NCBI GenBank assembly: GCA_017984755.1 | Contig: JAGNYW010000024.1 | Location: 1-44,532, forward strand | DNA from: Methyloversatilis sp. | GTDB lineage: Bacteria > Pseudomonadota > Gammaproteobacteria > Burkholderiales > Rhodocyclaceae | Length of the DNA stretch: 44,532 nucleotides | Direction of reading: 5' to 3' | Shown here: positions 5,294-24,376 of the stretch, piece by piece | Position numbering within the stretch: position 1 is the stretch's first letter | How the letters are laid out: each line of letters starts with the position of its first letter | Program-made: the position numbers and the translations under genes | Notes under the pieces: generated by a model | Databases searched by the model: none | Seen by the model: only the letters and a program-made list of their open reading frames with translations | Told to the model about the DNA's origin: nothing

Positions 5294-5442
5294 TTGCTTG
5301 TTGCCGACGTGGCACGTCGGCCCGGAACCTGGTCCCGATCCGCGCGACACACGTGTCCGCGATCAGCGGATCGCTACAATGACGCAACGGCAGCGGCTTG
5401 GCGCGGCCCCCTTTCCATCCTCTCCCTGCCTCCGTCCCATCC

Positions 5443-8400
5443 GTGTCGCAAAGATCCTTTCGCCCCCTCGGCTCTGCGCCGCAAGACGCCATCAGCCTGC
5501 GTGGCGTGCGCCAGAACAATCTGAAGAACATCGACGTCGATTTTCCGCTCGGCCAGCTCACCGTGGTGACCGGCGTGTCGGGCTCGGGCAAGTCCTCGCT
5601 GGTGTTCGACACCCTGTATGCGGAAGGCCAGCGGCGTTACGTCGAAACCTTTTCGCCCTACGCGCGGCAGTTTCTCGATCGCATGGATGCGCCGCAGGTG
5701 GATTCGATCTCCGGCGTGCCGCCGGCGATCGCCATCGACCAGAGCAATCAGGTGCGCACCTCGCGGTCGACCGTCGGCACGATGACCGAACTGAACGATC
5801 ACCTGAAGCTGCTGTTCGCGCGCACCGCCACGCTGCATTGCCGCGGCTGCGGCCAGCCGGTGCATGAAGAATCGTCCGACCGCATTGCCGGCGACATCGC
5901 GGCGCGTGCGGCGGCCGCCGGCGATCCGCGTCTGGTGGTGACCGCGCCGGTATCGGTGCCGGACAACTTCACCGATGCGGAAATCCAGGGCTGGCTCGAG
6001 CGTCAGGGTTACACGCGCGTCCATGCGCGCGACGGCAGCACACTGCACGTGGTGCAGGACCGCTTCCGTGCCGCCGCTGCCGAAGGCGCACGCGTGGCTG
6101 AAGCCGTCGAAGCGGCGCTGCGGCTCGGTCAGGGGGTCATGCATGTGCAGGTGCTCGACGCAGCGGGTGCGGTCACGGCGCGCTGGGCATTTTCCAGCCG
6201 TCTGCATTGCGCCGGATGCGACATCGCCTACAGCCCGGCACTGCCGGCGCACTTCTCGTTCAATTCTCCGCTGGGCGCCTGCGAAACCTGCCGCGGTTTC
6301 GGTCGCGTCATCGGAATCGACTTCGGACTGGTGGTTCCGGACGAGCGCAAGACGCTCGCCGGCGGCGCCATCAAGCCGTGGCAGACCGAGTCGTACGGCG
6401 AATGCCAGACCGATCTGGAAAAGATGGCCTCCAGGTACGGCGTGCCGATGGACGTGCCGTTCGCCGAGCTGAGTGCCGAACATCGCCGCTGGGTGCTCGA
6501 GGGCGACGCGAAATGGAAGAACTGGCAGAAGTCGTGGCCCGGCACCTGGTATGGCGTGCGCCACTTCTTCGAGTGGCTGGAAACCAAGGCCTACAAGATG
6601 CACATCCGCGTGCTGCTGTCGCGCTATCGCGCGTACACACCGTGCGTGGCCTGCGGTGGCAGCCGGCTCAAGCCCGATGCCGCGCTGTGGAAGATCGAAG
6701 GCCACGGCATCCATGACCTGATGCGGTGGCCGGCATCGAAACTGCGCACCATGATGGACGCACTGCGCCTGCCGCCGCCGCTCGACACGGCGACCGCAGA
6801 ACTGCTGGCCGAAATACGCACGCGGCTCGGCTACCTCGCCACGGTCGGCCTCGGATATCTGAATCTCGACCGCCAGTCGCGCACGCTGTCCGGCGGGGAA
6901 GTGCAGCGCATCAACCTGACGACCGCGCTCGGCACCTCGCTGGTCAACACGCTGTTCGTGCTCGACGAACCGTCGATCGGCCTGCACCCGCGCGACATGG
7001 AACGTGTGATCGGCGTCATGAAGCGCCTGAAGGACGCCGGCAACACGCTGGTCGTGGTTGAGCACGACCCGCAGATCATGCGTCATGCCGACCGTCTGCT
7101 CGACATCGGCCCCGGCGCCGGCACGCGCGGCGGCGAAGTGGTGTTCGACGGCCCGCCGGCCGGCATCGCCGGCGCGCACACGCTGACCGCCGACTACCTC
7201 GCCGGCCGCCGTCAGGTCGATGCCGCACTCGGCAGCCGGCGCACAGTGAAGCAATCCGGTCCGACGCTCAGGCTGGTGGGTGCGCGGGCGCACAACCTGA
7301 AGCGGCTCGACATCGCGATTCCGCTCGGCCATCTGGTCGCCGTGACCGGCGTGTCCGGCTCGGGCAAATCGACGCTGATCCAGGATGTGCTGTACCCGGC
7401 GCTGCTCAAGCACTTCGGCCGGCCGACCGAATCCGCCAGCGAACATGATGTGCTGGAGGGCGTCGAGCGGATCGCAGACGTGGTGATGGTCGACCAGTCG
7501 GCCATCGGCAAGAGCGCGCGCTCCAACCCGGTCACCCATGTCGGTGCCTTCGACCCGATGCGCGAGCTGTTCGCGCTGCAGGCCGAAGCGAAGCAGCGCG
7601 GCTACACCGCCGGCACCTTCTCCTTCAATGCCGGCAAGGGCCGCTGTGCAACCTGCGGCGGCACCGGTTTCGAGCACGTCGAAATGCAGTTCCTGTCCGA
7701 CGTGTACCTGCGCTGCGCGGATTGCAACGGCACGCGCTACCGTGCCGAGGTGCGCGAAATCACGGTCGACGGCCGCAGCATTTCGGACGTGCTGGCCATG
7801 ACCGTGCGCGACACGCTGGACTGGCTGCGCGACCTCGCTGCGCTGGAGAAGCCCCTTCGCCGGCACGCCGACGCGGCAATGACCGGCCTGCAGGCGCTGG
7901 TCGATGTCGGCCTCGATTACGTGACGCTGGGTCAGCCGGTACCGACGCTGTCCGGCGGCGAGGCACAGCGCCTGAAGCTGGCCGGCTTTCTCGCCGAGGC
8001 CGCCACGACGAAGAAGAACAAGGCGACGGGCAGCAGGCTGTTCCTGCTCGACGAACCCACCACCGGCCTGCACTTCGACGACATCGCCCGGCTGCTCGGC
8101 GCCTTTTCGAAACTGCTGGACGGCGGCCATACGGTGCTGGTGATCGAACACAATCTGGACGTGATCGCCGCGGCCGACTGGCTGATCGATCTCGGCCCGG
8201 AAGCCGGCGAAGACGGCGGCGAACTCGTGTTCGAAGGCACGCCGGCGCAGATCGTGACCTGCGTCGCCTCGCACACCGGTCGGGCACTGGCCGAGTACCG
8301 CATCACCGACACCTTCGGCCCAGGCACGGGCGACGTGCCGGCTGCCGAACCGACCGACGCGGCGCACAGTGCGTTGCGTGCCCGCGCGGCGCATGCCATC

Positions 8401-11019
8401 GTCGTGCACCGCGCACGCGAACACAATCTGAAGAACATCGAAGTCGACATTCCGCGCGACCGCTTCACCGTGGTGACCGGCGTGTCCGGTTCCGGCAAGT
8501 CCACGCTGGCCTTCGACATCGTGTTCGGCGAAGGACAGCGCCGCTATCTGGAATCGCTGAATGCCTACGCGCGCCAGTTCGTGCAGCCGGAGAGCAAGCC
8601 GGACGTCGACGGCGTGTTCGGCATTCCGCCCGCCGTGGCCATCGCGCAGCGCACCAGCCGCGGCGGACGCAAGAGCACGGTGGCGACACAGACCGAGATC
8701 TATCACTTTCTGCGGCTCATGTACGTGAAGCTGGGGGTGCAGCATTGCCCGGATTGCGGCTGTGCGATCGCGCCGCAGTCCGAAGACGCCATGGTGGCGC
8801 GCATCCTGCGCGAGCGACGCGGCCAGCACATCGGCCTGCTGGCGCCGCTGGTGATCAGCCGCAAGGGCTATTACACCGAACTGGCGCGCTGGGCGAAAAC
8901 GCACGGCCACACGCATCTGCGGGTCGACGGCGAATTCCTGCCGACCTCACCCTGGCCACGTCTGGACCGCTTCAAGGAACACACCATCGAGCTGCCGATC
9001 CGCGATTTCGTGGTCAGCGAGCGCGACGAGAAGACGCTGCGCGATGCGGTGCGCCAGTCGCTCGAACACGGCAAGGGCGTGCTGCATCTGCTGGCGCCGC
9101 TCGACGGCCTCGGTCAGCCGGATGCCCCGGTCCCGGCGGTCGAGGTGTATTCGACCCAGCGCGCCTGCCCGAGCTGCGGTACCGGCTTCGCCGAACTCGA
9201 TCCGCGGCTGTTCTCTTTCAACTCGAAACATGGCTGGTGTCCGAAATGCATGGGCACGGGTCTGAAGCTGCCGGGCTTCGATGCCGAACAGACGGGCGAG
9301 GAGGCGACCTGGAACGAGTGGCAGGCGGACGAACCGGAAGCCTGCCCGGCCTGCGACGGCGAGCGGCTGAACCCGATTGCCCGCCACGTCGCGCTGTTCG
9401 GCCAGTCGATCGCGAAACTGACGGCGCAGCCGGTATCGACACTGTCTGCTGCCATCTCCGGCTGGACACTCGAAGGGCGGGATGCCGACATCGCACGCGA
9501 CGTGGTGAGCGAACTGAACAGCCGCCTGCGCTTTCTGGCCGAGGTCGGCCTGGGCTATCTGTCGCTGGACCGCGCCGCCCCCACGCTGTCGGGTGGCGAG
9601 GCACAGCGCATCCGGCTCGCCGCACAGCTAGGTTCCAACCTGCGAGGCGTCTGCTACGTGCTTGACGAGCCGACCATCGGCCTGCACCCGAGGGACAACG
9701 ACGTACTGCTCGACACACTGGTGAAGCTGCGCGACAAGGGCAACACGCTGCTGGTGGTCGAGCACGACGAAGACACGATATTGCGCGCCGACCACGTGAT
9801 CGACCTCGGTCCGGGCGCCGGCCGGCTCGGCGGCGAGGTGATCGCCGAAGGACATGCGTCGGATCTTGCGATGCAGCCGAAGTCGATCACCGGCCAGTAC
9901 CTTGCGCGCCCGCTGCCGCACAGCTTCGCGCCGCGCCGCCCGGTCACCGACGACACACCGGCGCTGACTGTTCGGGAGGCGCGACTGCACAACCTCAAAG
10001 GCATGGACGTGCGCGTGCCGCTCGGCCGGCTGGTGGTGATGACCGGCGTGTCGGGCTCCGGCAAGTCGTCGCTGGCGCGGGAGGTGCTGCGTGACACCGT
10101 GGCGGCGAAGCTGTCCGGCCACGACGGCGACTGCACCGGCTGCCGCGACATCGAAGGCTGGGGCGCACTGGGCCGGGTGCTCGAGGTAGACCAGACACCG
10201 ATCGGCAAGACGCCGCGATCCTGTCCGGCCACCTACATCGGCTTCTGGGACGCCATCCGCAAGCTGTACGCCGATACCCAGGACGCGCGCGAACGCGGCT
10301 TCACGGCAGCGCGGTTTTCGTTCAACACCGGCCCCGGCCGCTGCACGCTGTGCGAAGGCCAGGGTCTGCGGCAGATCGAAATGTCCTTCCTGCCCGACGT
10401 GCGGGTGCTGTGCGAAGCCTGCAATGGCGCCCGCTTCAACGGCGAAACACGCGCCGTCATGTGGCGGGGCAGGAGCATTGCCGACGTGCTGGCAATGAGC
10501 GTGGATGAGGCGGCGGACTTCTTCGCCGCACACCGTGCCATCGCCACGCCGCTCAAACTGATGCAGGAAGTCGGCCTCGGCTACCTGACGCTGGGGCAGC
10601 ACAGCCCGACGCTCTCGGGCGGCGAGGCACAGCGCATGAAACTGGTGACCGAACTGGCGAAGTCACCGGCGAGCGCAGGCGACGCCACCGCCGAACCGGC
10701 CGGAGCGCGGCGCGGTCGCGGCAATCCGCATACGCTCTATGTACTGGACGAGCCCACCACCGGCCTGCACATGGCCGACATCGCAAAGCTGATCACGGTG
10801 CTGCATCGCCTGGTCGATGCCGGGCACAGCGTGGTGGTGATCGAGCACGATCTCGATCTGATGGCCGAAGCCGACTGGATCATCGATCTCGGACCGGAAG
10901 GCGGAGACGGCGGAGGTCAGTTGGTCGCGAGCGGCTCACCGGCAGACTTCCTGACGCTGGGCGCGCTGTCGCACACCGCTCGCGCGCTCGAGAAATTCAG
11001 CATCAGACGGCGGCGCTGA
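5443..11019 (+). CDS. Double-length UvrA-like excinuclease ATPase (two UvrA units in one chain)
   Basis: 1858 residues from the GTG at 5443 ([10 protein letters not shown]); a TTG at 5398 would add 15. Normal UvrA is ~940 residues with two ABC ATPase halves. This chain has four: Walker A GVSGSGKS near residues 45, 634, 1011 and 1533; ABC signatures LSGGEVQR or LSGGEAQR near 482, 835, 1381 and 1723; and four LDEP Walker B motifs ([48 protein letters not shown]). UvrA zinc modules ([48 protein letters not shown]) are present in both halves. It therefore looks like a covalent UvrA dimer. UvrA recognises bulky DNA lesions as a dimer and loads UvrB. Large tandem UvrA-like proteins are known in proteobacteria beside a normal uvrA; whether this one works in repair is inferred. 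It overlaps the convergent PEP-CTERM gene by 17 bp. Confidence 0.9.
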
Positions 11020-13267: not shown

Positions 13268-13543
13268 TCAGGCGGACTGACGCGGCCATCGGGTGATCAG
13301 ATCGGCCACGTGTGCCACCCCCGAAAGCGCCAGGAAAGCGGCAACCCACATCCATCCCGAATCAACCAGCGCAGCGCGCAGCGCGAGCATCAGGCACATT
13401 CCGGCCGCCAGATTGGGCAGCAACTGCCGCCCGGAAAGCCCCTTGCCCGTCCGGCGATGCCGTGCCGCGAGAACAAGCCATTCGACGACAACGAGGACCA
13501 CCACGAAAGCGGTAAGTCGTCCGTCAAGTATTGCTTCCGCCAT
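13268..13543 (-). CDS. Small three-helix membrane protein, unknown
   Basis: 91 residues with three predicted transmembrane helices: LTAFVVVLVVVEWLVLAA; LLPNLAAGMCLMLALRAALV; MWVAAFLALSGVAHVADLI. Arg/His-rich loops (RHRRTGKG, RWPRQ) suggest the orientation. I do not recognise the family. It is divergent from the heme oxygenase gene with only 44 bp between the starts, so the two probably share a control region. That is the only hint of a link to the phytochrome module. Confidence 0.65.
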   Translation of the reverse strand: MAEAILDGRLTAFVVVLVVVEWLVLAARHRRTGKGLSGRQLLPNLAAGMCLMLALRAALVDSGWMWVAAFLALSGVAHVADLITRWPRQSA

Positions 13544-13587
13544 CTTTCTTCCTCGGTTTGCGCGGTCCGACAGGCTATCATTTCGGC

Positions 13588-14223
13588 ATGCATGCGGATT
13601 CAGTCATCACCGGCCTGGCTGCGCGTCTGCGAGCCGAAACGTCGCTGTTGCACCGGCAGGCCGAACACACGGGCCTGATGCCACAACTGCTGAAAGGCAA
13701 GTTGCCTATGCCGGCCTACTGCAGATTGCTGCGCAACCTTCACGCGCTGTACTCGGCGCTCGAAACCGGATTGGCTCACCATGCGTCCGACCCGTCGGTT
13801 GCACCTATCCACCTGCCCGAGCTTGCTCGCACCATGGCAATCGAATCGGATCTGCAGGCCCTGCACGGACACGGCTGGGAGCGCGACATCGAACTGACGC
13901 CGGGTGCCGCCGACTATGTGCGTCACCTGCAGCAACTCACGCTGGAGCGCCCCGCGCTGCTGGCGGCACATTCCTACGTCCGTCATCTCGGCGACCTGCA
14001 TGGCGGCCAGGTGCTCGGACGCGTCGTGTCGTCGATGCCCGGCACGAGCGACGGCACAGGAACGTCTTTCTACGCATTCGCGGGGGACGTTGCGGTGCTG
14101 ATCCGTCGCTATCGGGCAGGGCTGGATGCACTGCCGCAGGACGACGAAAGCGTGGCAGCGCTGGTGGCCGAAGCCTGCTCCGGCTTCGCCCGACACATCA
14201 CGCTGTTCGACGAACTGGCGTGA
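13588..14223 (+). CDS. bphO: Heme oxygenase (biliverdin supply for bacteriophytochrome)
   Basis: 211 residues from ATGCATGCG. Heme oxygenases open heme to biliverdin, CO and Fe2+; biliverdin is the chromophore of bacteriophytochromes. Visible family features are the N-terminal LLHRQAEHTGLMPQLLKG region with the candidate proximal heme ligand His22, an aromatic LYSALE helix, and the distal-helix motif YVRHLGDLHGGQVLGR, whose Gly-rich kink lies over the heme. It ends 18 bp from the stop of the convergent bphP gene, and that pairing supports the bphO name over a heme-iron utilisation role. Confidence 0.88.
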   Translation: MHADSVITGLAARLRAETSLLHRQAEHTGLMPQLLKGKLPMPAYCRLLRNLHALYSALETGLAHHASDPSVAPIHLPELARTMAIESDLQALHGHGWERDIELTPGAADYVRHLQQLTLERPALLAAHSYVRHLGDLHGGQVLGRVVSSMPGTSDGTGTSFYAFAGDVAVLIRRYRAGLDALPQDDESVAALVAEACSGFARHITLFDELA

Positions 14224-14241
14224 GCAGGCGGAAGCTGCCTG

Positions 14242-16485
14242 TCAGTTGCCCCGCGTGAAGGCACGCAGCTTGCCGTAGATGGCGGCGGCGCGCGTTGCAG
14301 ATGCTTCGAGCTCTTCTATCAGCGTCGCAACCGGGCCCGCCGCAGCCGTATCGGTCAGTTCCATCGCAGCCACGCTGGCGTTCGCCAGAATGGCGCCGAC
14401 CACTTCATCCGGTTCGCGCCTGATCGGCATGGCCGGATCCCGGCCGATGCCGGCACGCCCGGCTTCGCTCAATGACTGTTCGAGATGCCGACGCGCCGCT
14501 TGGGTACGCTTGGTGTCGGTGAGGTCGGTGAGGATGATGATGTAGCCGAGCACCGTGCCGCCCGGCCCCGGAATGGCATCGGCCCGGATGCCCAGGGCAA
14601 CGAGCTGGCCCTCGCCTGCCTTGAGGCACCACTCGCCGCGCCACGAGTCACGCTCGGTACGCAGCACATCCAGCACCTGCCGGACATGAGCCGGATCGAC
14701 AAACATGTCGGCCAGATCGTCGAGGACGCGTATGGGGGGTGGCGGCGTCCGGAACAGTGCGGCGAACGCCGCGCTCGGAAACAGCACGCGCCCCTGCGCA
14801 TCGGATACCAGAACGGGTTCCTGCGACGTTTCGACGGCGCTGCGGAAGCGATCGGCCTGATGCTGGGCGATCAGCAAACGAACCGCCTGCGTCTGCAGGA
14901 TCACGTCGCGCAGTGTGGTACCGATCGCACGTGCCAGTGCAATGTCGGCCTTGCTCCAGGGCGCCGCGCAGCCGCGCACGATCTCGGACCAGGCAGCGAA
15001 TGAACGACGCGGCGACAGGGTCAGCGGATCATTGCCGACGACGGGTTTGGTCGGATCGCCCGCCCATGTAATGCTCGCCGACTGCTCGCGGCGGAACCAC
15101 ATCAGGAAATCCTGACCGGACGACGAAAGCTCGATCGCCAGCACGCCGCATGCAACGGGCGTCAGCGATTCGAGTTGCGGATTGGCACGTTCGACCGAAA
15201 CGCAACTGAAGAACCCCTGCCGGATTTCACTACCGACCCAGTCCGCGAGGCTGCGCAATTCAGAGGTCGAAGGCACATCGCCGACGGTGAGCAGTTCGCC
15301 CTCGTGAAACAGCGCGGCACCGGTCGCTTCGAGCGGCTGCAGCAGGGTACGGGGATTCCGCACCAGCGCAAGGCGCCAGTCGCCCTCGGTCGAGGTGGCT
15401 TCGATGAGACGCAATTCAAGGCTGCGCACCAGCACGTCCACCTGGGTGCGCACGTAATTCTCGATCGCGGCGATCCGCGTCGCGACCACCTCCGCCAGCA
15501 GGTCAACCGCGGCGCGTTCCGTATAGTGGATGTGCCGGGCCGAATAGTGGTGGCATGCGATCAGGCCCCACAAGCGCCCCTCCCGCACGAGCGACACGAC
15601 AAGCGTTGCCGTCACGCCCATGTTCTTCAGGTACTGGATGTGGAGCGGCGACATGCTGCGCAGGTGGCACATCGACATGTCGAACTCTTCGCCGGTGTCC
15701 GGAAGTACGCGCGGCAGCACCGCAGAAGGTGTGTAGCCCGCATCGGCCAGCACGCGTACCCGGTTGCGCAGATACAGGCCGCGCGCACGCTGCGGAATGT
15801 CGGTCGCCGGATAGCGCTGCCCGAGCAGCGACTCGAGCCTGGGTTCGCGTGCCTCGGCGATGATTTCCCCATGACCGTCATCATCGAAGCGGTACACCAT
15901 CACCCGGTCGTAACCCGTCAGTTCGCGTACCGACAGCACCACCGCGTCAGCGAGCGCTGTGATGTTCAACGCTTCGCTGAATCGCCTGACGGAAGTCGCG
16001 AGCAACGCCTGGGAAGCAAAATCGAGTGAGCCGCCTTCCGACGGAGCGGCTTCCAGTTCGATCACGATGGTGCCTGACTGTCCGAGATGCGCCATGCCCT
16101 CGAACGCCCTGCACGAATCTGCTGCGCCGACGTCGCAGCGGAAGGCGGTCAGTTCATCCGGACTCAGCTCATCTGCAATCGCGCGCACCCGTTCAGCCAG
16201 ATTGCCACCCAGCGTCGCAAGGCCCTGATCAAGCACGCGATGATGTGGCGTACCAAGCAGCTGCCCGACGTTCTCGCTGGCGAGCAGCACACGCAGATCC
16301 GTGGCGTCGGCCACCAGCAACACCCCGTGTGGCTGGATGGAGCCAGCCAGATGGATGAGCTCGCGTTCGCAATTGGTGAGATCCGCCTGACCGAAGGGCG
16401 GACTGAAAGTCGGTTCGTTCAACAAGGGTCTCCCGCCGACGCGGGACGCGCGGCGCTCAGTGAACGCTGCCCCGGTGCGGCACAC
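14242..16485 (-). CDS. bphP: Bacteriophytochrome, PpsR-associated type, without histidine kinase
   Basis: 747 residues from the ATG at 16485. Adjacent TTG codons at 16425 and 16422 would give a start nearer to known homologues. Domains: PAS (~35-145) with the biliverdin-binding Cys39 in LTNCERELIHLAGSIQPHG; GAF (~160-335) with the signature YPATDIPQRARGLYLRN (Asp229-Ile-Pro) and HLRSMSPLHIQYLKNMGV; PHY (~345-520) with tongue motif SPRRSF (492-496). A second PAS follows (~545-655), then a short helical tail (~660-747). There is no HisKA H-box and no HATPase N/G boxes. This layout (photosensory core, PAS, helical output) matches the phytochromes that bind PpsR directly in Rhodopseudomonas and Bradyrhizobium, not two-component kinases. 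The gene overlaps the 3' end of the PpsR-like gene by 29 bp (translational coupling), and bphO converges from the other side. Predicted role: a cytoplasmic red/far-red sensor controlling photosynthesis genes by protein-protein contact. Confidence 0.92.
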   Translation of the reverse strand: MCRTGAAFTERRASRVGGRPLLNEPTFSPPFGQADLTNCERELIHLAGSIQPHGVLLVADATDLRVLLASENVGQLLGTPHHRVLDQGLATLGGNLAERVRAIADELSPDELTAFRCDVGAADSCRAFEGMAHLGQSGTIVIELEAAPSEGGSLDFASQALLATSVRRFSEALNITALADAVVLSVRELTGYDRVMVYRFDDDGHGEIIAEAREPRLESLLGQRYPATDIPQRARGLYLRNRVRVLADAGYTPSAVLPRVLPDTGEEFDMSMCHLRSMSPLHIQYLKNMGVTATLVVSLVREGRLWGLIACHHYSARHIHYTERAAVDLLAEVVATRIAAIENYVRTQVDVLVRSLELRLIEATSTEGDWRLALVRNPRTLLQPLEATGAALFHEGELLTVGDVPSTSELRSLADWVGSEIRQGFFSCVSVERANPQLESLTPVACGVLAIELSSSGQDFLMWFRREQSASITWAGDPTKPVVGNDPLTLSPRRSFAAWSEIVRGCAAPWSKADIALARAIGTTLRDVILQTQAVRLLIAQHQADRFRSAVETSQEPVLVSDAQGRVLFPSAAFAALFRTPPPPIRVLDDLADMFVDPAHVRQVLDVLRTERDSWRGEWCLKAGEGQLVALGIRADAIPGPGGTVLGYIIILTDLTDTKRTQAARRHLEQSLSEAGRAGIGRDPAMPIRREPDEVVGAILANASVAAMELTDTAAAGPVATLIEELEASATRAAAIYGKLRAFTRGN

Positions 16486-17650
16486 CGGGACCGCGCGGCT
16501 GAACCGCGCGAATGATGAACCCGATACTGTTCGAATTTCCGTTGTGGATCAATACGGCAGACAGTTCGATATCCAGCTGGACATCCGTTTCATCGCGCAA
16601 TCGGGCCGTCAGGCGCTTCACACCTGAACGGCGCACGCTGTCCAGCAGCGACACAAATCCGCTACCTTCGCGTTCTACCCACTCGCCCAGCGAGCGCCCA
16701 CGCACATCCTGTGCATCCGAAATCCTGACCAATTCGAGGAAGGCCGGATTGGCGCTCAGAACCAGTCCCTGTTCGTCGGTGAATGCGATGGCATCCGGTG
16801 TCAGGCGCATGAGATCCGGCAGCATCGTGTCTTCGGGCGGCGGCGGCAGGGACGGCATGCCATCCGGCGTTGCCCTGAGCAGCAGCAGGTTCTGACCTTC
16901 ACTGCGCAGCGGCGATGCCCATACGTGAATATTTCCGCGCTGACCGGACAGATGAAGCGATGCATCGCCCGAGCGTCCGGACACCCGAACCGTCCCGAGC
17001 AGTTCCTGAAGAACCGATACGGACGCCGGTGCTACGCCTTCAACCGCCTGGCGTCCCGACATTTCCTGGACCGTGCCTCCGAACATGCGGGCTGCAGCGC
17101 GATTCGCGTCCACCACCTGGAAGGTTTCGGCATCGATCACGAGCACGGCATCCGTCGCAATCTGGAACAGCAGGCGATAGCGCGTTTCGGCCTGACGCAT
17201 GCGCCAGTAATCACGCTCCATGGACTGCTGGGCGTCCACCAGCCGTTGCTGCATGACCGAAACAGCTCGGAGGTCGCGACCTGCGACCAGCAGCGGGCCC
17301 GACTGACCGAGCCTGACAGCCGTATACGCGACCGGAATGTCCGCTCCTGCCGGTGAAGGATGGTTGATGTGCCTGGTACGCGAAACGCCCGCCTGGCTGG
17401 CTTCCCGCAGCAGTTCTTCCACCTTGCGTCTTGTTTCGCTGGTAACGGTATCGACGAGCTGGCGGCCGAGCCATTCGCTTGCCGTGGCACTGACCGGCTC
17501 CGCTCCGCCCAGCGCAACGCTGCGGATGTAGCCCTGGTCGTCCAGTACGAGGGCGATATCACTCGTGACCGACACCAACATGTCGGCCAGTTCTGGGGCA
17601 ACCTCAGAAAACGCGCTCAGATCGCCCGGATCGTTCGGTAACTTGTTCAC
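16457..17650 (-). CDS. PpsR paralogue lacking the DNA-binding domain and all cysteines
   Basis: 397 residues from a GTG. It aligns by eye along its length with the full PpsR at 21949-23376. An N-terminal PAS-like domain (~20-120: TSDIALVLDDQGYIRSVALG) is followed by a Q-linker coiled coil (~130-165: MQQRLVDAQQSMERDY, nearly identical to LQQRLVDAQQSIERDY in PpsR). PAS1 (~165-275: YRLLFQIATDAVLVIDAE) and PAS2 (~285-390) complete it. It stops at QPRGPGVPHRGSVH, where PpsR continues into its Fis-type helix-turn-helix. No HTH remnant is visible in any frame before bphP begins. It contains no Cys, whereas PpsR has the two positions tied to redox sensing in the family. Cotranscribed with bphP. Inferred role: phytochrome partner that heterodimerises with, or titrates, PpsR. 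Confidence 0.88.
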   Translation of the reverse strand: MNKLPNDPGDLSAFSEVAPELADMLVSVTSDIALVLDDQGYIRSVALGGAEPVSATASEWLGRQLVDTVTSETRRKVEELLREASQAGVSRTRHINHPSPAGADIPVAYTAVRLGQSGPLLVAGRDLRAVSVMQQRLVDAQQSMERDYWRMRQAETRYRLLFQIATDAVLVIDAETFQVVDANRAAARMFGGTVQEMSGRQAVEGVAPASVSVLQELLGTVRVSGRSGDASLHLSGQRGNIHVWASPLRSEGQNLLLLRATPDGMPSLPPPPEDTMLPDLMRLTPDAIAFTDEQGLVLSANPAFLELVRISDAQDVRGRSLGEWVEREGSGFVSLLDSVRRSGVKRLTARLRDETDVQLDIELSAVLIHNGNSNSIGFIIRAVQPRGPGVPHRGSVH

Positions 17651-17970
17651 TGGATGGGACCGGATGAACGCAGTCGCAAAAGAAAGCGTGCGAGATGCTT
17701 TTTATACAAAACCCGGCGCCTACCGGGGGCACTGCAAGCCAGATCGACGGGTCGCGGAATCTTCTGCTGAGACAACCGCACTTGGCATCGCGTTCTCGTC
17801 ACGTCCGGTCCTGACGCGCGCCGTTGCGCGTTCAGGCCGCTTGTGCGATGCATTGACCGTCACGGCGGAGCCCCTCAATGCTTCACGACACGTCCCTGCA
17901 TGCTACGGTAACTCATCAAAAAAAACATATCACAAGTCCGAAATGATCGAAAAGATCGATGTTTGTCCGG
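17651..17970. other. Intergenic region upstream of the ppsR-like/bphP operon
   Basis: About 320 bp. It must hold the promoter of the ppsR-like gene and the end of the tspO operon. I see an A8 run near 17918-17926 and a small hairpin (atcga/tcgat, ~17946-17960) beyond the tspO stop. That pair could be a weak terminator on the minus strand. No TGT-N12-ACA box and no credible gene was found; the open frames here lack codon character and start signals. Confidence 0.4.
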
Positions 17971-18468
17971 TCACTGCGCCACAAACGGCCCATTCATTTC
18001 GACGATCGCCATATTTAGCCAGGCGGCGAATGCCACCCAGGCCAGATAGGGAAGCAGCAGCAGCGAGGCCGTCCGGGACCATGAGCGAAGGTGCAACGCA
18101 AGCAGCGCAACGGACAGCCACAGGAAGCCCACCTCGACAAGCGCCAGATCAGGGCGCTGCAGGTGAAAGAAGAGCGCGCTCCAAAATATGTTCAGACCAC
18201 CGTTGAGCGCAAAAAGGCCGAGCATCCATACCCGGCAGCGCGCATTCGGCGCACGCGTCCAGCCCAGAACGCCCGACATCGCCGCAAGACTGAATATGAG
18301 TGTCCACGCGGGCCCGAACAGCCAGTCGGGCGGCTGCCACGACGGCTTGGCGAGCGCTTGGTACCACGGACTCAGGTCGGTCGCCGCTGCACCCAGCGCA
18401 CCGACGAGGAATGCCGCCAGTGCGGCTGCCGCAACCGGCGGCCAGCGCTGGGCGGCGAACGCGTTCAC
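17971..18468 (-). CDS. tspO: TspO/MBR family membrane protein (tryptophan-rich sensory protein)
   Basis: 165 residues. The GTG start overlaps the bchP stop (GTGA), so the two are translationally coupled. Five hydrophobic helices and the family's Trp-rich pattern are visible: PSWQPPDWLFGPAWTLIF in the first loop, LNIFWSALFF, and YLAWVAFAAWLNMAI at the C terminus. TspO is a porphyrin-binding membrane protein. In Rhodobacter sphaeroides it dampens expression of photosynthesis genes under oxygen. Placement as last gene of the bchG-carrier-bchP operon fits a tetrapyrrole-linked role. A longer upstream frame inside bchP was rejected. Confidence 0.9.
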   Translation of the reverse strand: MNAFAAQRWPPVAAAALAAFLVGALGAAATDLSPWYQALAKPSWQPPDWLFGPAWTLIFSLAAMSGVLGWTRAPNARCRVWMLGLFALNGGLNIFWSALFFHLQRPDLALVEVGFLWLSVALLALHLRSWSRTASLLLLPYLAWVAFAAWLNMAIVEMNGPFVAQ

Positions 18469-19643
18469 GGTGAGACGATGCCGCAGAGATGCGCCAGATC
18501 CTTGAAGAAGATGCGCGCATGCGCCATCGGCTTCGCCTTGACCAGTCTCTTGTGCATGTAGGCCTGCCACGTCAGATGCTGCACATCCGGATCACGGCAG
18601 ATGCTGACGAAGCGCTCACGTCGCTTGTCGCTGGCGTACCAGAAGCGCTGCATGATGCCGAGGATCATGAACACACGACCATGCGCCTTCATGAATCGCT
18701 TGCGCGCAAGCGCCAGCGACCGCGCATCACCCGTGATGAGGAAAAGATCGACGGATTCAGCGGCGAGGCGCCCGCCGGTCATCGCGTAGTAGAGGCCTTC
18801 GCCCGATGCCGGCGCCACGACACCTGCGGCATCGCCGGCGAGCACGACATCGCGACCGTTGTCCCACTTCCTGAGCGGCTTCATCGGAATCGGAGCACCC
18901 TCGCGGCGGATCGTATCCGCACCTGCAAGGCCGGCAGCTTCGCGCAGTGCCGTGGTGCCGTTGCGAATGGAGAACCCCTTGCGTGCGCTGCCACTGCCGA
19001 TGCTGGTGGTGTCCCCGTGCGGGAAAACCCAGCCATAGAAATCCGGAGACAGCTTGCCCTGGTAGTAAACGTCGCAACGGCTGCCGTCGAAGCCCTGCGT
19101 CGGCGAACGGACAATCTCGTGGTAGGCGAACACGCACGGCACTTCATCGGCACCCGGCACACACTGACGCCCGACTGCCGACAGAGCGCCATCCGCGCCG
19201 ATCACGGCACGCGCGCGAACGCCGACGGTTTCGCCGTCCTTGTTGCGATAGTTGACGATCGCCCGGCCATCAAGGTCACGCGTGATCGTGTCGAACGAGC
19301 CCGCGCGCCGTTGCGCGCCTGCCAGACCGGCACGGCCACGCAGATATTCATCGAAGTGTTCGCGATCGACCATGCCGACGAATCCGCCCTGGATAGGCAT
19401 GTCGGCAACGCGTCCGGACGGGGAAATCATTCTTGCCGAACGTGCCTTGGCCACCAGCTGCTCGTCGGGAATGGCGAACTCCTCGATCAGCCGCGGCGGC
19501 ACTGCGCCACCGCAAGGCTTGATGCGACCGGCCCGGTCGAGCAGCAGAACGGAATGTCCCTGCCGGGCGAGATCCGTTGCGGCAGTCGAACCCGCCGGCC
19601 CGCCGCCCACCACGACCACATCAAAACTTTCCATGCCCGACAT
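18465..19643 (-). CDS. bchP: Geranylgeranyl (bacterio)chlorophyll reductase
   Basis: 392 residues. BchP reduces the geranylgeranyl tail of bacteriochlorophyll to phytyl in three NADPH-dependent steps. N-terminal FAD-binding Rossmann motif VVVVGGGPAGST, then LLLDRAGRIKPCGGAVPPRLIEEF, which is diagnostic for the BchP/ChlP family. A second FAD contact is VVLAGDAAGVVAPASGEGLYYAM. Length is normal. It starts 2 bp after the stop of the PucC-type carrier and overlaps tspO. No frame damage. Confidence 0.95.
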   Translation of the reverse strand: MSGMESFDVVVVGGGPAGSTAATDLARQGHSVLLLDRAGRIKPCGGAVPPRLIEEFAIPDEQLVAKARSARMISPSGRVADMPIQGGFVGMVDREHFDEYLRGRAGLAGAQRRAGSFDTITRDLDGRAIVNYRNKDGETVGVRARAVIGADGALSAVGRQCVPGADEVPCVFAYHEIVRSPTQGFDGSRCDVYYQGKLSPDFYGWVFPHGDTTSIGSGSARKGFSIRNGTTALREAAGLAGADTIRREGAPIPMKPLRKWDNGRDVVLAGDAAGVVAPASGEGLYYAMTGGRLAAESVDLFLITGDARSLALARKRFMKAHGRVFMILGIMQRFWYASDKRRERFVSICRDPDVQHLTWQAYMHKRLVKAKPMAHARIFFKDLAHLCGIVSP

Positions 19644-21931: not shown

Positions 21932-21949
21932 TGTCACACGAACTTGACT
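21932..21949. promoter_or_regulatory. Second candidate PpsR box, touching the ppsR stop
   Basis: Plus strand TGTC-N10-GACT, that is TGT-N12-ACT, one mismatch from consensus with the preferred inner C and G present. It ends on the first base of the ppsR stop codon complement. Confidence 0.45.
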
Positions 21950-23376
21950 CAGTCTTCGGCGTCGATGTCGTCGTGTTCGGAGTTCAAGTCGCCGAGGCCA
22001 TAGCGACGCAGCTTCACATAGAGGCTTTGTCTGCTCAGACCCAGCATTTCCGCCGCGGAGGCACGATTGTCATGAGTCAATTCAAGCGCCGCCTCGATGC
22101 ACAGCTTTTCGATCAGATCGGTTGATTCGCGCACCAGCTCCTTCAGCGACACGCGACCGACGAGACCGGTCAGCTGTTCCACCGAACGCGGCAGATCCCG
22201 ACCGGCGCGCGGATCGAGCTCGACCCGCCTGCTGACACCACGCACCGTGAAACCGAGGCAGGGCGTTTCGCCATGCGGCACCGACACGGCAGAAATTTCG
22301 ACCTCGACATCCGAACCATGCTCGCCGCGGACCAGCGTCGAGAACAGGCGCACCGAACCATGCTGACGTAGATTGACCATCAACACCTTGAAATCGACGC
22401 CGGGTCGACCGAGCCAGCGCTCGAGCAGCTCTCCGCGCGCCTGTTCGACCGAAGCCAGCTGGGCAAGGTCAAGAAAGGCGTGATTGGCGGTCAATACGCG
22501 GCCGGCTTCATCCGTGAGCACAAAGCCGTCGGGAACCTGTTCGATGGTATCCAGCAATGCCTTCTGAAGCCCGGACGACGCTGGCTGCTCCATGGCACAC
22601 GGCGACAGGCGGACAAGGAAAAGTGCCGCATTGTCCTGACGCACGAGCGATGCTGCCACCACCAGTTCACGCCGGTCGTCCGCAAGATGGGCATGCACGT
22701 CTTCCGCCTTGCCGGCGGCGCGCACACTGGCCAGCAGGTCCTGAACGGTCTGCATGCCCGCTTCGTCGAATCCGTCCGGAAACGTCCTGCCGACCAGTCC
22801 TTTCGGGAGTGACCCGAGAAGGCGCACCGCAGCCGGGTTCGCCTCCATCACGCGCTGACTGCCCGCCTCGACGATGAGCACCGCCTCCGATGTCATCTGA
22901 AACAGCAGTCGATAGCGGGTTTCCAGCTGCCGGAGCTTGGCGTAGTCGCGCTCGATGGATTGCTGCGCATCGACCAGGCGCTGCTGCAGCGAGGATAGCG
23001 AGCGAAGATCGCGGCCGAACGCGACGACCTTTCCTTCCTGACCGACCTGAATCGCCGAATAGAGCACCGGAAGATCGATGCCACCCGGAACCGGGTGATT
23101 TACGTGGCGCCATCTGTGGCTGGAGTCGGCTGATGCGTCGGTGAGCAGCTCCTCGACCTTGGGCCGGCTTTCGACCGTCACCACATCGGCCCAGCGACGA
23201 CCGACCCAGTCGTCGTAACCGTCGGGCGCCAGCTCCTGGCTGCCGAAAGCAATGTCACGGATGACACCCTGGCCGTCGAGCACCAGCGCAACGTCCGACG
23301 CCGCGGCCACAAGCCGCGCAACGGACTTCGCATCCACCCCGCCGAGCGACGCAAGCGGTGAATCAAAAGGCTTCAC
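21949..23376 (-). CDS. ppsR: Photosynthesis gene repressor PpsR/CrtJ (full length)
   Basis: 475 residues from the GTG at 23376, with GGGGGG about 9 bases before it. A TTG at 23439 would add 21. The GTG start matches the paralogue and typical family length (~465). Domains: N-terminal PAS (~5-100), Q-linker coiled coil with LQQRLVDAQQSIERDY, PAS1 (~155-265), PAS2 (~275-390) and a Fis-type HTH (~420-462: ASAAEMLGLSRQSLYVKLRR). Cys260 (LSPCAM) and Cys426 (KLCIEAALEL) lie close to the two positions implicated in thiol redox control in Rhodobacter. PpsR binds TGT-N12-ACA and represses bch, crt and puc genes under oxygen. Lies between ppaA and bchG, all leftward. Confidence 0.93.
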   Translation of the reverse strand: MKPFDSPLASLGGVDAKSVARLVAAASDVALVLDGQGVIRDIAFGSQELAPDGYDDWVGRRWADVVTVESRPKVEELLTDASADSSHRWRHVNHPVPGGIDLPVLYSAIQVGQEGKVVAFGRDLRSLSSLQQRLVDAQQSIERDYAKLRQLETRYRLLFQMTSEAVLIVEAGSQRVMEANPAAVRLLGSLPKGLVGRTFPDGFDEAGMQTVQDLLASVRAAGKAEDVHAHLADDRRELVVAASLVRQDNAALFLVRLSPCAMEQPASSGLQKALLDTIEQVPDGFVLTDEAGRVLTANHAFLDLAQLASVEQARGELLERWLGRPGVDFKVLMVNLRQHGSVRLFSTLVRGEHGSDVEVEISAVSVPHGETPCLGFTVRGVSRRVELDPRAGRDLPRSVEQLTGLVGRVSLKELVRESTDLIEKLCIEAALELTHDNRASAAEMLGLSRQSLYVKLRRYGLGDLNSEHDDIDAED

Positions 23377-23461
23377 GCTGTCCGCCCCCCACTCGACGCC
23401 ACTCGTCGCGAGTTCACTGCGCCCCTGCTCCGATCCCAATCATTCACCCCGTAGATCCAGT

Positions 23462-24376
23462 TCAGCCCTGCGTACATCGCAGCGGTACCATTTCATCTGC
23501 TCGCCTTACGGCGTCCTTTGCGTCCGTCGCAGTCGCGTCCGCCCCCACAAGAGCAACCCATTCGGGATGCTCGACAAAGATCGGGCCACCGACCATGACG
23601 ATCAGGTCGGGGTTCGAAGAAACGCCACGAACCGCCGAAATCAGGCGCTTCAGCGCTTCCAGCCGCGCCTCGCTGCCCACGGAAAAACCAAGCACATCGA
23701 ATCGTTCCGTCTGCACCGCCTGCACCAGGTCAAGACTGCGCCCGGAAGCACCGGCACAGACTTCCCAGCCGCTGTGACGAAAGAATTCGGCAACCATCAG
23801 CAACCCGAGCGTGTGCTGGTCACCGGGCGCCGCCGACAACAGGACACGCCGGCCACCGGGCGCGAACTGAGCGTCATTGCGGAAGCTCGGCGCCAGCTCG
23901 TGGACCACCTGCTGAATGCGCCACAGACCGAGCGTGACCTGGGTGAAGTCGCACAGGTCGGCCTCCCAAAGCTCGCCCAGTCGTCGCGCGGCCGGAGCAA
24001 GAAGTTCGAGAAAAATCGTTTCAGGAGAAGCACCGCGGGCACGCACCGCCTCGACCCAGGTTCGCGCAACCCTGGCATCCTGGGCCAGCACGAGATTGGC
24101 GAATTCCACAACCTCGGGCGACGACGGCGCCTTGTCCTCACAACCGATTGCCGGTGCAGAGGGATCCTGACCGCCGTGCGCAAGCATGAGCCGCGGAATG
24201 ATTTCCGCCTCTATGGTACGCGCCAGATCACCCATCCAGTCGGCGGTCGGGAAGACCAGCTCACCGGTACTGCGAGTCACCGGCTGGGGCGACGATCTGG
24301 GCGGACTCCCTGATTCCGACCAGTATTCCCCCGCAATGCGCGCCGTATTGGCGTCTTCCTGAGTGGTCCCGGCCAT
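23462..24376 (-). CDS. ppaA: PpaA/AerR cobalamin-binding antirepressor
   Basis: 304 residues. AAAGGA lies 8 bases before the ATG. An all-helical part (~85-165: FLELLAPAARRLGELWEADLC and LWRIQQVVHEL, the B12-dependent cap helix) is followed by a Rossmann-like B12 domain. This domain has APGDQHTLGLLMVAEFF, which keeps the His-x-x-Gly cobalt-ligand motif at His188. The late GGP element VMVGGPIFVEHP is also there. AerR/PpaA proteins bind B12 in a light-dependent way and relieve PpsR/CrtJ repression. The position immediately upstream of ppsR, with the same direction, is the classical arrangement. Confidence 0.92.
   Translation of the reverse strand: MAGTTQEDANTARIAGEYWSESGSPPRSSPQPVTRSTGELVFPTADWMGDLARTIEAEIIPRLMLAHGGQDPSAPAIGCEDKAPSSPEVVEFANLVLAQDARVARTWVEAVRARGASPETIFLELLAPAARRLGELWEADLCDFTQVTLGLWRIQQVVHELAPSFRNDAQFAPGGRRVLLSAAPGDQHTLGLLMVAEFFRHSGWEVCAGASGRSLDLVQAVQTERFDVLGFSVGSEARLEALKRLISAVRGVSSNPDLIVMVGGPIFVEHPEWVALVGADATATDAKDAVRRADEMVPLRCTQG

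Follow-up and report, generated by a model that had tools for sequence, protein, structure and literature searches.

A natural PpsR paralogue without a helix-turn-helix motif, conserved beside a bacteriophytochrome gene in Methyloversatilis

The ppsR-L gene and its product

We analyzed a 44,532-nucleotide stretch of DNA from Methyloversatilis sp. (GenBank assembly GCA_017984755.1, contig JAGNYW010000024.1, positions 1 to 44,532 of the forward strand; hereafter the window) in which a gene for a relative of the photosynthesis repressor PpsR lies directly before a gene for a bacteriophytochrome, bphP. This gene, ppsR-L, ends where other PpsR genes continue into a DNA-binding helix-turn-helix (HTH); a complete PpsR gene, ppsR1, is present in the same window. 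The ppsR-L gene and the parts of its product are placed as follows:

16457..17650, minus strand: ppsR-L (P0001), an HTH-less PpsR paralogue of 397 aa, GTG start, stop codon included
17273..17578, minus strand: N-PAS of PpsR-L, residues ~25-126
17177..17272, minus strand: Q-linker, residues ~127-158, the most conserved part (modelled helix 127-164)
16865..17176, minus strand: PAS1, residues ~159-262
16505..16825, minus strand: PAS2, residues ~276-382, final strand 373-382 retained
16460..16504, minus strand: C-terminal tail of 15 residues, of low model confidence; other PpsRs continue into the HTH here

The NCBIfam PpsR-CrtJ family TIGR02040 recognizes PpsR-L with 303.9 bits (cut-off 275.4) over profile positions 1-364 of 442, whereas the normal PpsR of the window, PpsR1, is covered from 1 to 442; the two proteins are 42% identical across 363 residues. 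A Pfam scan of PpsR-L returns PAS-type regions only, with no HTH_8, BLUF or B12 domain. PpsR-L has the N-PAS, Q-linker, PAS1 and PAS2 of the PpsR/CrtJ family and lacks its C-terminal Fis-type HTH, and we therefore class it as a PpsR paralogue and not as a PpsR repressor. The HTH cysteine of the family is absent with the domain, and PpsR-L has no cysteine at all.

The structure model of PpsR-L (mean pLDDT 74.6, pTM 0.38) has three PAS-like segments and a single long Q-linker helix; since it completes the PAS2 strand 373-382 before a tail that is of low confidence from residue 385, the protein is predicted to terminate at a domain edge. Both by fold (E 3.2e-33) and by sequence, the top match among solved structures is 4hh2, whose title describes PpsR without the HTH motif; the related entry 4hh3 is titled as the AppA-PpsR core complex. 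The TM-scores to 4hh2 are low (0.49/0.52) and the root-mean-square deviation is 18.6, so the domains match and their arrangement does not. Profile, Pfam and model together bear out an initial annotation, made from the sequence alone, which had proposed that the four N-terminal parts are retained and that the protein ends ahead of the HTH.

No trace of the missing domain was found in any of the six frames of 14201-17650, where segments of at least 15 residues reach at most 2.4 bits against an HTH profile built from 90 PpsR1 proteins. PpsR recognizes the operator motif TGTN12ACA; the window holds 4 instances of this pattern against 5.7 expected, and never near ppsR-L. PpsR boxes close to ppsR-L were rejected on these grounds, the pattern being no commoner than chance. 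A scan of 14100-18100 gave no sigma-70-like site, and three terminator-like sites where 2.5 are expected by chance.

The bacteriophytochrome and the complete PpsR

14242..16485, minus strand: bphP (P0003), a PAS-GAF-PHY-PAS bacteriophytochrome by Pfam, no kinase domain
14245..14514, minus strand: C-terminal region of BphP at the place of the HOS output, with a motif conserved in the alignment of linked BphPs
21949..23439, minus strand: ppsR1 (P0002), full PpsR with HTH (TIGR02040 1-442; HTH_8 42.5 bits)
21994..22173, minus strand: HTH of PpsR1, missing from PpsR-L

The first GTG of bphP overlaps ppsR-L, and by eye translation may really begin at a TTG near 16425. Among solved structures BphP is closest to 4gw9 (582.6 bits), followed by 5oy5, another BphP1 (499.9 bits), and by others from 327 bits down. 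4GW9 is the BphP1 of R. palustris without HOS (PMC6899989). The window protein has the PAS-GAF-PHY + PAS9 architecture and the conserved cysteine in the N-terminal region that define type 3 (RpBphP1-type) bacteriophytochromes; of 43 aligned BphP rows, 41 have the cysteine and two have a gap at its position, one of these two being a fragment of only 12 residues. This cysteine carries the chromophore. Pfam finds no kinase family in the window BphP, whose conserved C-terminal motif is modelled as two helices with pLDDT <50, in a structure model too poor for use (mean pLDDT 51).

Conservation in Methyloversatilis

The HTH-less gene is present in 10 of 13 Methyloversatilis genomes; the same ten have a full PpsR, and the other three have neither. 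Its product is 60-81% identical in six named loci, with approximately the same endpoint in all six, one of which belongs to an M. thermotolerans scaffold of 4.1 Mb. A frameshift or an assembly or sequencing error that conceals a normal HTH, one of the ways in which the initial annotation could have failed, is in our estimation practically negligible; independent genomes and the six-frame scan led us to reject it. As initially described, a naturally HTH-less PpsR accompanies a bphP, whose product has R. palustris BphP1 (4gw9) as its best solved relative, and the HTH-less form is conserved in the genus.

The cysteine content of the proteins is more variable. The initial annotation correctly counted no cysteine in PpsR-L and miscounted the normal PpsR, which has three (281, 394 and 447, numbered from the TTG at 23439) and not two. 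The ppsR-L products of four other loci (L009-L012) carry two cysteines each, inside the protein, and those of the window, L013 and L014 none; we therefore rejected freedom from cysteine as a conserved trait. The suggestion that PpsR-L is blind to redox is weakened accordingly, although the HTH cysteine is lost in all 14 HTH-less copies described below and replaced in 17 of 19 HTH remnants.

The ratio of nonsynonymous to synonymous substitution rates (dN/dS) between the window and three relatives is 0.13, 0.17 and 0.30 for ppsR-L (0.30 for the most distant), 0.10, 0.25 and 0.22 for ppsR1, and 0.14, 0.25 and 0.32 for bphP, with synonymous differences close to saturation in the distant pairs. Close pairs give 0.07 and 0.03 for ppsR-L, 0.02 and 0.03 for ppsR1, and 0.08 and 0.07 for bphP. 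The ratios for ppsR-L are much like those for ppsR1 and bphP.

BphP-linked PpsR copies beyond the genus

The order of the window is Burkholderiales in GTDB (Betaproteobacteria, Nitrosomonadales in NCBI). In 399 of its genomes, 49 have PpsR-CrtJ matches and ten of these, the window included, have a second copy; an apparent eleventh, in G265, is one gene in two pieces. A closer look at one genus (12 genomes, 8 with PpsR) returned the same six second copies as before, and further families (200 genomes, 34 with PpsR; 67 genomes, 5 with PpsR) added more. A sample of the phylum (398 genomes) has PpsR in 31, with second copies in only three genomes, all of the window's order. Eight plasmid records hold a PpsR relative, at best 39% identical. 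Of 144 PpsR proteins found, ten from short loci of represented genomes were dropped; the remaining 134 comprise 90 PpsR1, 33 BphP-linked, 8 divergent and 3 unlinked proteins.

The 33 linked copies, all from the window's order, are co-directional with bphP and lie directly before it, a linkage that was itself a selection rule for this set. The bphP match starts -87 to 118 nt from the stop of the second PpsR (PpsR2) in 32 of 33; in G005 the distance is 602 nt because of a nonsense codon in its ppsR-L. The 31 linked BphPs that are readable to the end have a short C-terminal stretch and no kinase, the Pfam kinase scan itself having covered the window protein only. In this way the HTH-less PpsR next to bphP, found across the genus, is part of a broader pattern in the order.

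Of 36 genomes with PpsR-L or a relative of it, 35 also have a complete PpsR1; the one without, G1429, is 77% complete, and its 5.7-kb contig stops just past bchG, at the usual ppsR1 site. This bears on the possibility that PpsR-L serves BphP by a route other than PpsR1, either by tuning its photochemistry or dimerization or by signalling to another partner. The tight ppsR2-bphP order in 33 copies would suit such a role, as would six loci (L142, L143, L144, L146, L147 and L148) in which the pair has no bchG, bchP or ppsR1 match in the 12-15 kb available. The near-constant presence of PpsR1 speaks against it, as does the continued conservation of the N-PAS and Q-linker, which are taken to be the self-association parts of PpsR, and we regard this explanation as unlikely, though the strongest of the alternatives.

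In a second order of the phylum the arrangement differs from that of the window: a second ppsR is divergent from a histidine-kinase-like bphP in 8 of 8 loci (L125-L136). Eight of eleven second PpsRs were read in this set, and those of G1008, G1051 and G1104 are known by profile match only, reaching position 441-442. The second order also has three co-directional ppsR2-bphP cassettes with a window-type BphP; in G1105 the contig ends ahead of any readable ppsR2. In the three genomes of the G1042 family no RpBphP1-type BphP match was found, and the controls were silent too.

Two further PpsR variants were seen in the survey. A PpsR beside a divergent kinase-type bphP (L134 in G1018, 6424-7410) keeps the HTH and has lost the PAS2 stretch (profile 1-230 and 378-442), and by its profile match appears to be the opposite truncation to PpsR-L. 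In three genomes with a single PpsR (L104, L105 and L106; G265, G382 and G412), the profile match is interrupted after PAS2 and before the HTH, at 1-368 or 1-367, with a further match at 377-442 given for G265 only, which suggests an insert between the two domains.

Erosion of the HTH

Scores against the HTH profile separate the PpsR classes. The 90 PpsR1 proteins, which are the training set of the profile and had no bphP found alongside, score 110-128 bits; the eight divergent PpsR2 proteins of the second order, outside the training set, score 88-109 bits. All 33 BphP-linked PpsRs of the window's order score at most 42 bits, their HTH being eroded or absent. Fourteen have no HTH: the ten from Methyloversatilis (that of G005 being cut by its stop) and those of G313, G351, G530 and G445. 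In the second order, the three PpsRs from co-directional cassettes score 68-76 bits with the recognition helix intact, so that none of the 11 BphP-linked PpsRs read in that order (68-109 bits) is eroded. Since second-order cassettes of the same kind keep the HTH, lineage and not the kind of cassette sets its loss. The three unlinked second PpsRs score 8.5-30 bits.

Constraint has shifted within the protein in the same direction, as seen in mean pairwise identities of PpsR1 (7 in the tree, from the same genomes) and of PpsR2 with an HTH remnant (19, namely 16 BphP-linked and 3 unlinked). From PpsR1 to PpsR2 these change from 46% to 56% in N-PAS, 68% to 64% in the Q-linker, 43% to 44% in PAS1, 57% to 38% in PAS2, 83% to 42% in the HTH and 91% to 34% in the recognition helix; the divergent PpsR2 proteins of the second order (7) retain 71% in the HTH and 78% in the recognition helix. 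The HTH is the best conserved part of PpsR1 and among the least conserved of PpsR2; the N-PAS and Q-linker are not relaxed. At the residue level, R470, Q471, Y474 and K476 (P0002 numbering) are invariant in 90/90 PpsR1 and 8/8 divergent PpsR2 proteins. Among 19 BphP-linked remnants, R470 is kept in 6, Q471 in 2, and Y474 and K476 in none, K476 being replaced by arginine in 14. The HTH cysteine follows suit (87/90 PpsR1, 8/8 divergent PpsR2, 2/19 remnants), and its position is gone in the HTH-less copies.

The remnants could instead bind DNA with a new specificity, the HTH-less copies being isolated endpoints. When eight proteins were scanned with Pfam HTH_8 (cut-off 22), two of five scored remnants, L103 (25.2) and L141 (34.2), exceeded the cut-off and are thus still recognizable HTHs; the second-order L163 reached 48.5. 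Others fell below it (L100 16.8, L101 16.7, L098 14.9), and L097 and L102 gave no match. With the recognition helix being the least conserved part and the PpsR1-invariant residues mostly gone, new specificity is in our judgement improbable.

It is about equally improbable, or a shade less so, that ppsR-L is simply in decay, having once been a PpsR2 of the R. palustris type, with a DNA-binding end that decayed once it was no longer needed and with no present function. The HTH decays by degrees from lineage to lineage, PAS2 is relaxed and one Methyloversatilis copy has a nonsense codon, all of which would fit. The low dN/dS, down to 0.03 and 0.07 in close pairs, would not, nor would an N-PAS that is more conserved than that of PpsR1 with a Q-linker about equally so, or a match uninterrupted by a stop in nine of ten genus copies. 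In the window's order, the PpsR paralogues linked to BphP have been freed of the constraint of DNA binding and keep the N-PAS/Q-linker core, and PpsR-L is one end of this wider pattern of erosion.

Evolutionary history

A first PpsR tree was built from 84 of the 134 proteins (45 PpsR1, 28 BphP-linked, 8 divergent, 3 unlinked), and complete loss of the HTH needs three changes on it. A single origin of 31 window-order copies, a group defined after this tree had been viewed, was not rejected; the constrained tree was even better, with an approximately unbiased test value (p-AU) of 0.642. A second tree, of 86 proteins, used the PAS core only and omitted the HTH, with the long branch L060 dropped and the three second-order cassette copies added; its bootstrap is unsettled. 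Here 25 window-order copies, including Methyloversatilis, form one group (100/99), and one genus (G313, G351, G530, G474, G226 and G445) groups with the three HTH-bearing second-order copies (100/100); a single origin is again not rejected (p-AU 0.082). In a BphP tree, which omits L162 (the 12-residue fragment), four near-copies and two rows that run off the end of a contig, the same six-copy genus joins the second order (SH-aLRT 100) and a single clade for the window's order is rejected (p-AU 0.035). With one clade rejected by the BphP tree, and the six-copy genus placed beside the second order by both, the trees favour two or more parallel erosions of the HTH in the window's order but do not prove them.

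Other genes of the window

13531..14223, plus strand: heme oxygenase (biliverdin supply), convergent to bphP
17971..18570, minus strand: tspO, by Pfam
23462..24376, minus strand: B12-binding protein adjoining ppsR1, by Pfam

We take the B12-binding protein to be PpaA/AerR, by its position only. As its gene, at 23462-24376, sits directly before ppsR1, PpsR1 may receive a second input through it. The tspO gene that lies beside ppsR-L in G957 is found as two adjoining pieces (L010 3646-3907; L113 10197-10458) that match query residues 1-54 and 124-155, with the middle seemingly deleted. Elsewhere in the window, an open reading frame of 1873 aa (5398-11019, plus strand) has UvrA-like ATPase motifs twice and by eye apparently consists of two UvrA-like halves.

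Proposed role of PpsR-L

We consider it an even call that ppsR-L encodes a second PpsR which no longer binds DNA and instead serves as a protein partner of the adjacent BphP, relaying light to PpsR1; a light-gated adaptor or dominant-negative role, as initially proposed, is still the best reading of the gene. The simplest mechanism would be a relay of protein contacts from BphP to PpsR-L to PpsR1, each of which we infer. BphP, switched by red and far-red light, would bind or release PpsR-L through the Q-linker and PAS1, and PpsR-L would join mixed oligomers with PpsR1 through the N-Q-PAS1 core and weaken repression by PpsR1. PpsR-L would then be a light-gated antirepressor or adaptor, in a chain of contacts that involves neither phosphotransfer nor DNA binding ahead of PpsR1. 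Either sign could apply: BphP-bound PpsR-L could pull PpsR1 off the DNA, so that far-red light derepresses as in R. palustris, which we slightly prefer, or BphP could withdraw a dominant-negative subunit from PpsR1, with the sign inverted. A more general and somewhat more tentative proposal is that BphP and PpsR2 became, on at least two occasions in the window's order, a signalling unit lacking both kinase and DNA-binding outputs. In it, a photoreceptor whose output is short and helical, together with a PpsR pared down to its oligomerization core, would steer the redox repressor PpsR1 solely via the insertion of this core into, or its withdrawal from, PpsR1 oligomers.

Several observations weigh against the proposed role. 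The G005 copy of ppsR-L, from a single-contig Methyloversatilis genome, has a TAG within PAS1 (L109, ~10853-10855), with the bphP behind it open. PAS2 is relaxed in PpsR2 along with the HTH. Many phototrophs that lack the cassette have PpsR1 too, so that finding it alongside PpsR-L counts for little. Three second PpsRs with an eroded HTH have no bphP nearby (G1254/L149, G1389/L153 and G1437/L155): the downstream gene in G1254 is ppsR1, and there is no match in the next 5.9 kb in G1437 or in 15 kb in G1389. They group among BphP-linked PpsRs in the tree, and perhaps their photoreceptor was lost or moved. The case for heterodimers initially made from nearly identical Q-linkers did not hold up: the window pair is identical at only 22 of 31 positions, and Q-linkers of PpsR1 and PpsR2 are 60% identical in 17 same-genome pairs and 59% in 272 different-genome pairs, so that Q-linker similarity between the PpsR1 and PpsR2 of one genome is not above the general level, and Q-linker identity was rejected as a heterodimer signature. 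Finally, a model cautiously offered in PMC6899989, based on small-angle X-ray scattering (SAXS), pairs the PpsR2 HTH with HOS in the BphP1 contact, which is impossible for an HTH-less protein.

Comparison with known systems

PMC6899989 reports that R. palustris BphP1 binds PpsR2 in response to far-red light, that removal of HOS abolishes this binding, and that the redox cysteine is absent from the PpsR2 HTH in R. palustris strains other than CGA009. The Q-linker and PAS1 of PpsR2 suffice as a BphP1 binding partner (PMC13058837, citing Redchuk et al. 2017). The BphP1-PpsR2 contact is thus placed in the HTH by the SAXS model and in the Q-linker and PAS1 by optogenetics, and a natural HTH-less partner can discriminate between the two. 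According to PMC12654162, Methyloversatilis has a photosynthesis gene cluster whose use is unproven, and Bradyrhizobium loci with bphP and two ppsR genes are mentioned there. In Roseateles, PMC10037100 mentions a ppsR together with a 'crtJ homologue (ORF350)', which may or may not correspond to the ppsR-L gene. Searches of open-licence literature, mostly at the level of listings, gave no description of an HTH-less PpsR or of the ppsR-bphP pair of such bacteria, and one could exist elsewhere.

Should the proposed relay hold, light and redox would be divided between two PpsRs, with a light branch that seemingly has no DNA target of its own and acts through another protein, most simply PpsR1. The survey also supplies far-red optogenetics with some thirty candidate pairs of partners, and in several of them there is no DNA-binding domain to take out; PpsR-L would be a natural counterpart of truncated near-infrared optogenetic partners.

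As in the R. palustris PpsR2/BphP1 system, a PpsR paralogue is partnered with a non-kinase BphP, the best solved match of the window BphP being 4gw9, and ppsR-L adjoins a BphP1-type bphP just as the PpsR2 and BphP1 genes of R. palustris adjoin each other. PpsR-L differs in lacking the HTH that R. palustris PpsR2 has by its description in PMC6899989. It shares this lack with Q-PAS1, the laboratory-cut BphP1 partner (Redchuk 2017 as cited in PMC13058837), but is natural and keeps the N-PAS and PAS2 that the engineered protein is without. Its domain set is the same as that of Rhodobacter sphaeroides PpsR without the HTH (4hh2), a laboratory construct where PpsR-L is a natural protein. The eight second-order loci likewise have a second ppsR beside bphP, but there the genes are divergent, the BphP ends like a histidine kinase and the HTH is retained (88-109 bits), whereas the window pair is co-directional and HTH-less. 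In its proposed effect on PpsR1, PpsR-L would resemble the antirepressors AppA, PpaA/AerR and LdaP. To our knowledge none of these is a PpsR paralogue; PpsR-L, by contrast, is one, with PAS-type domains only and neither BLUF nor B12 domain.

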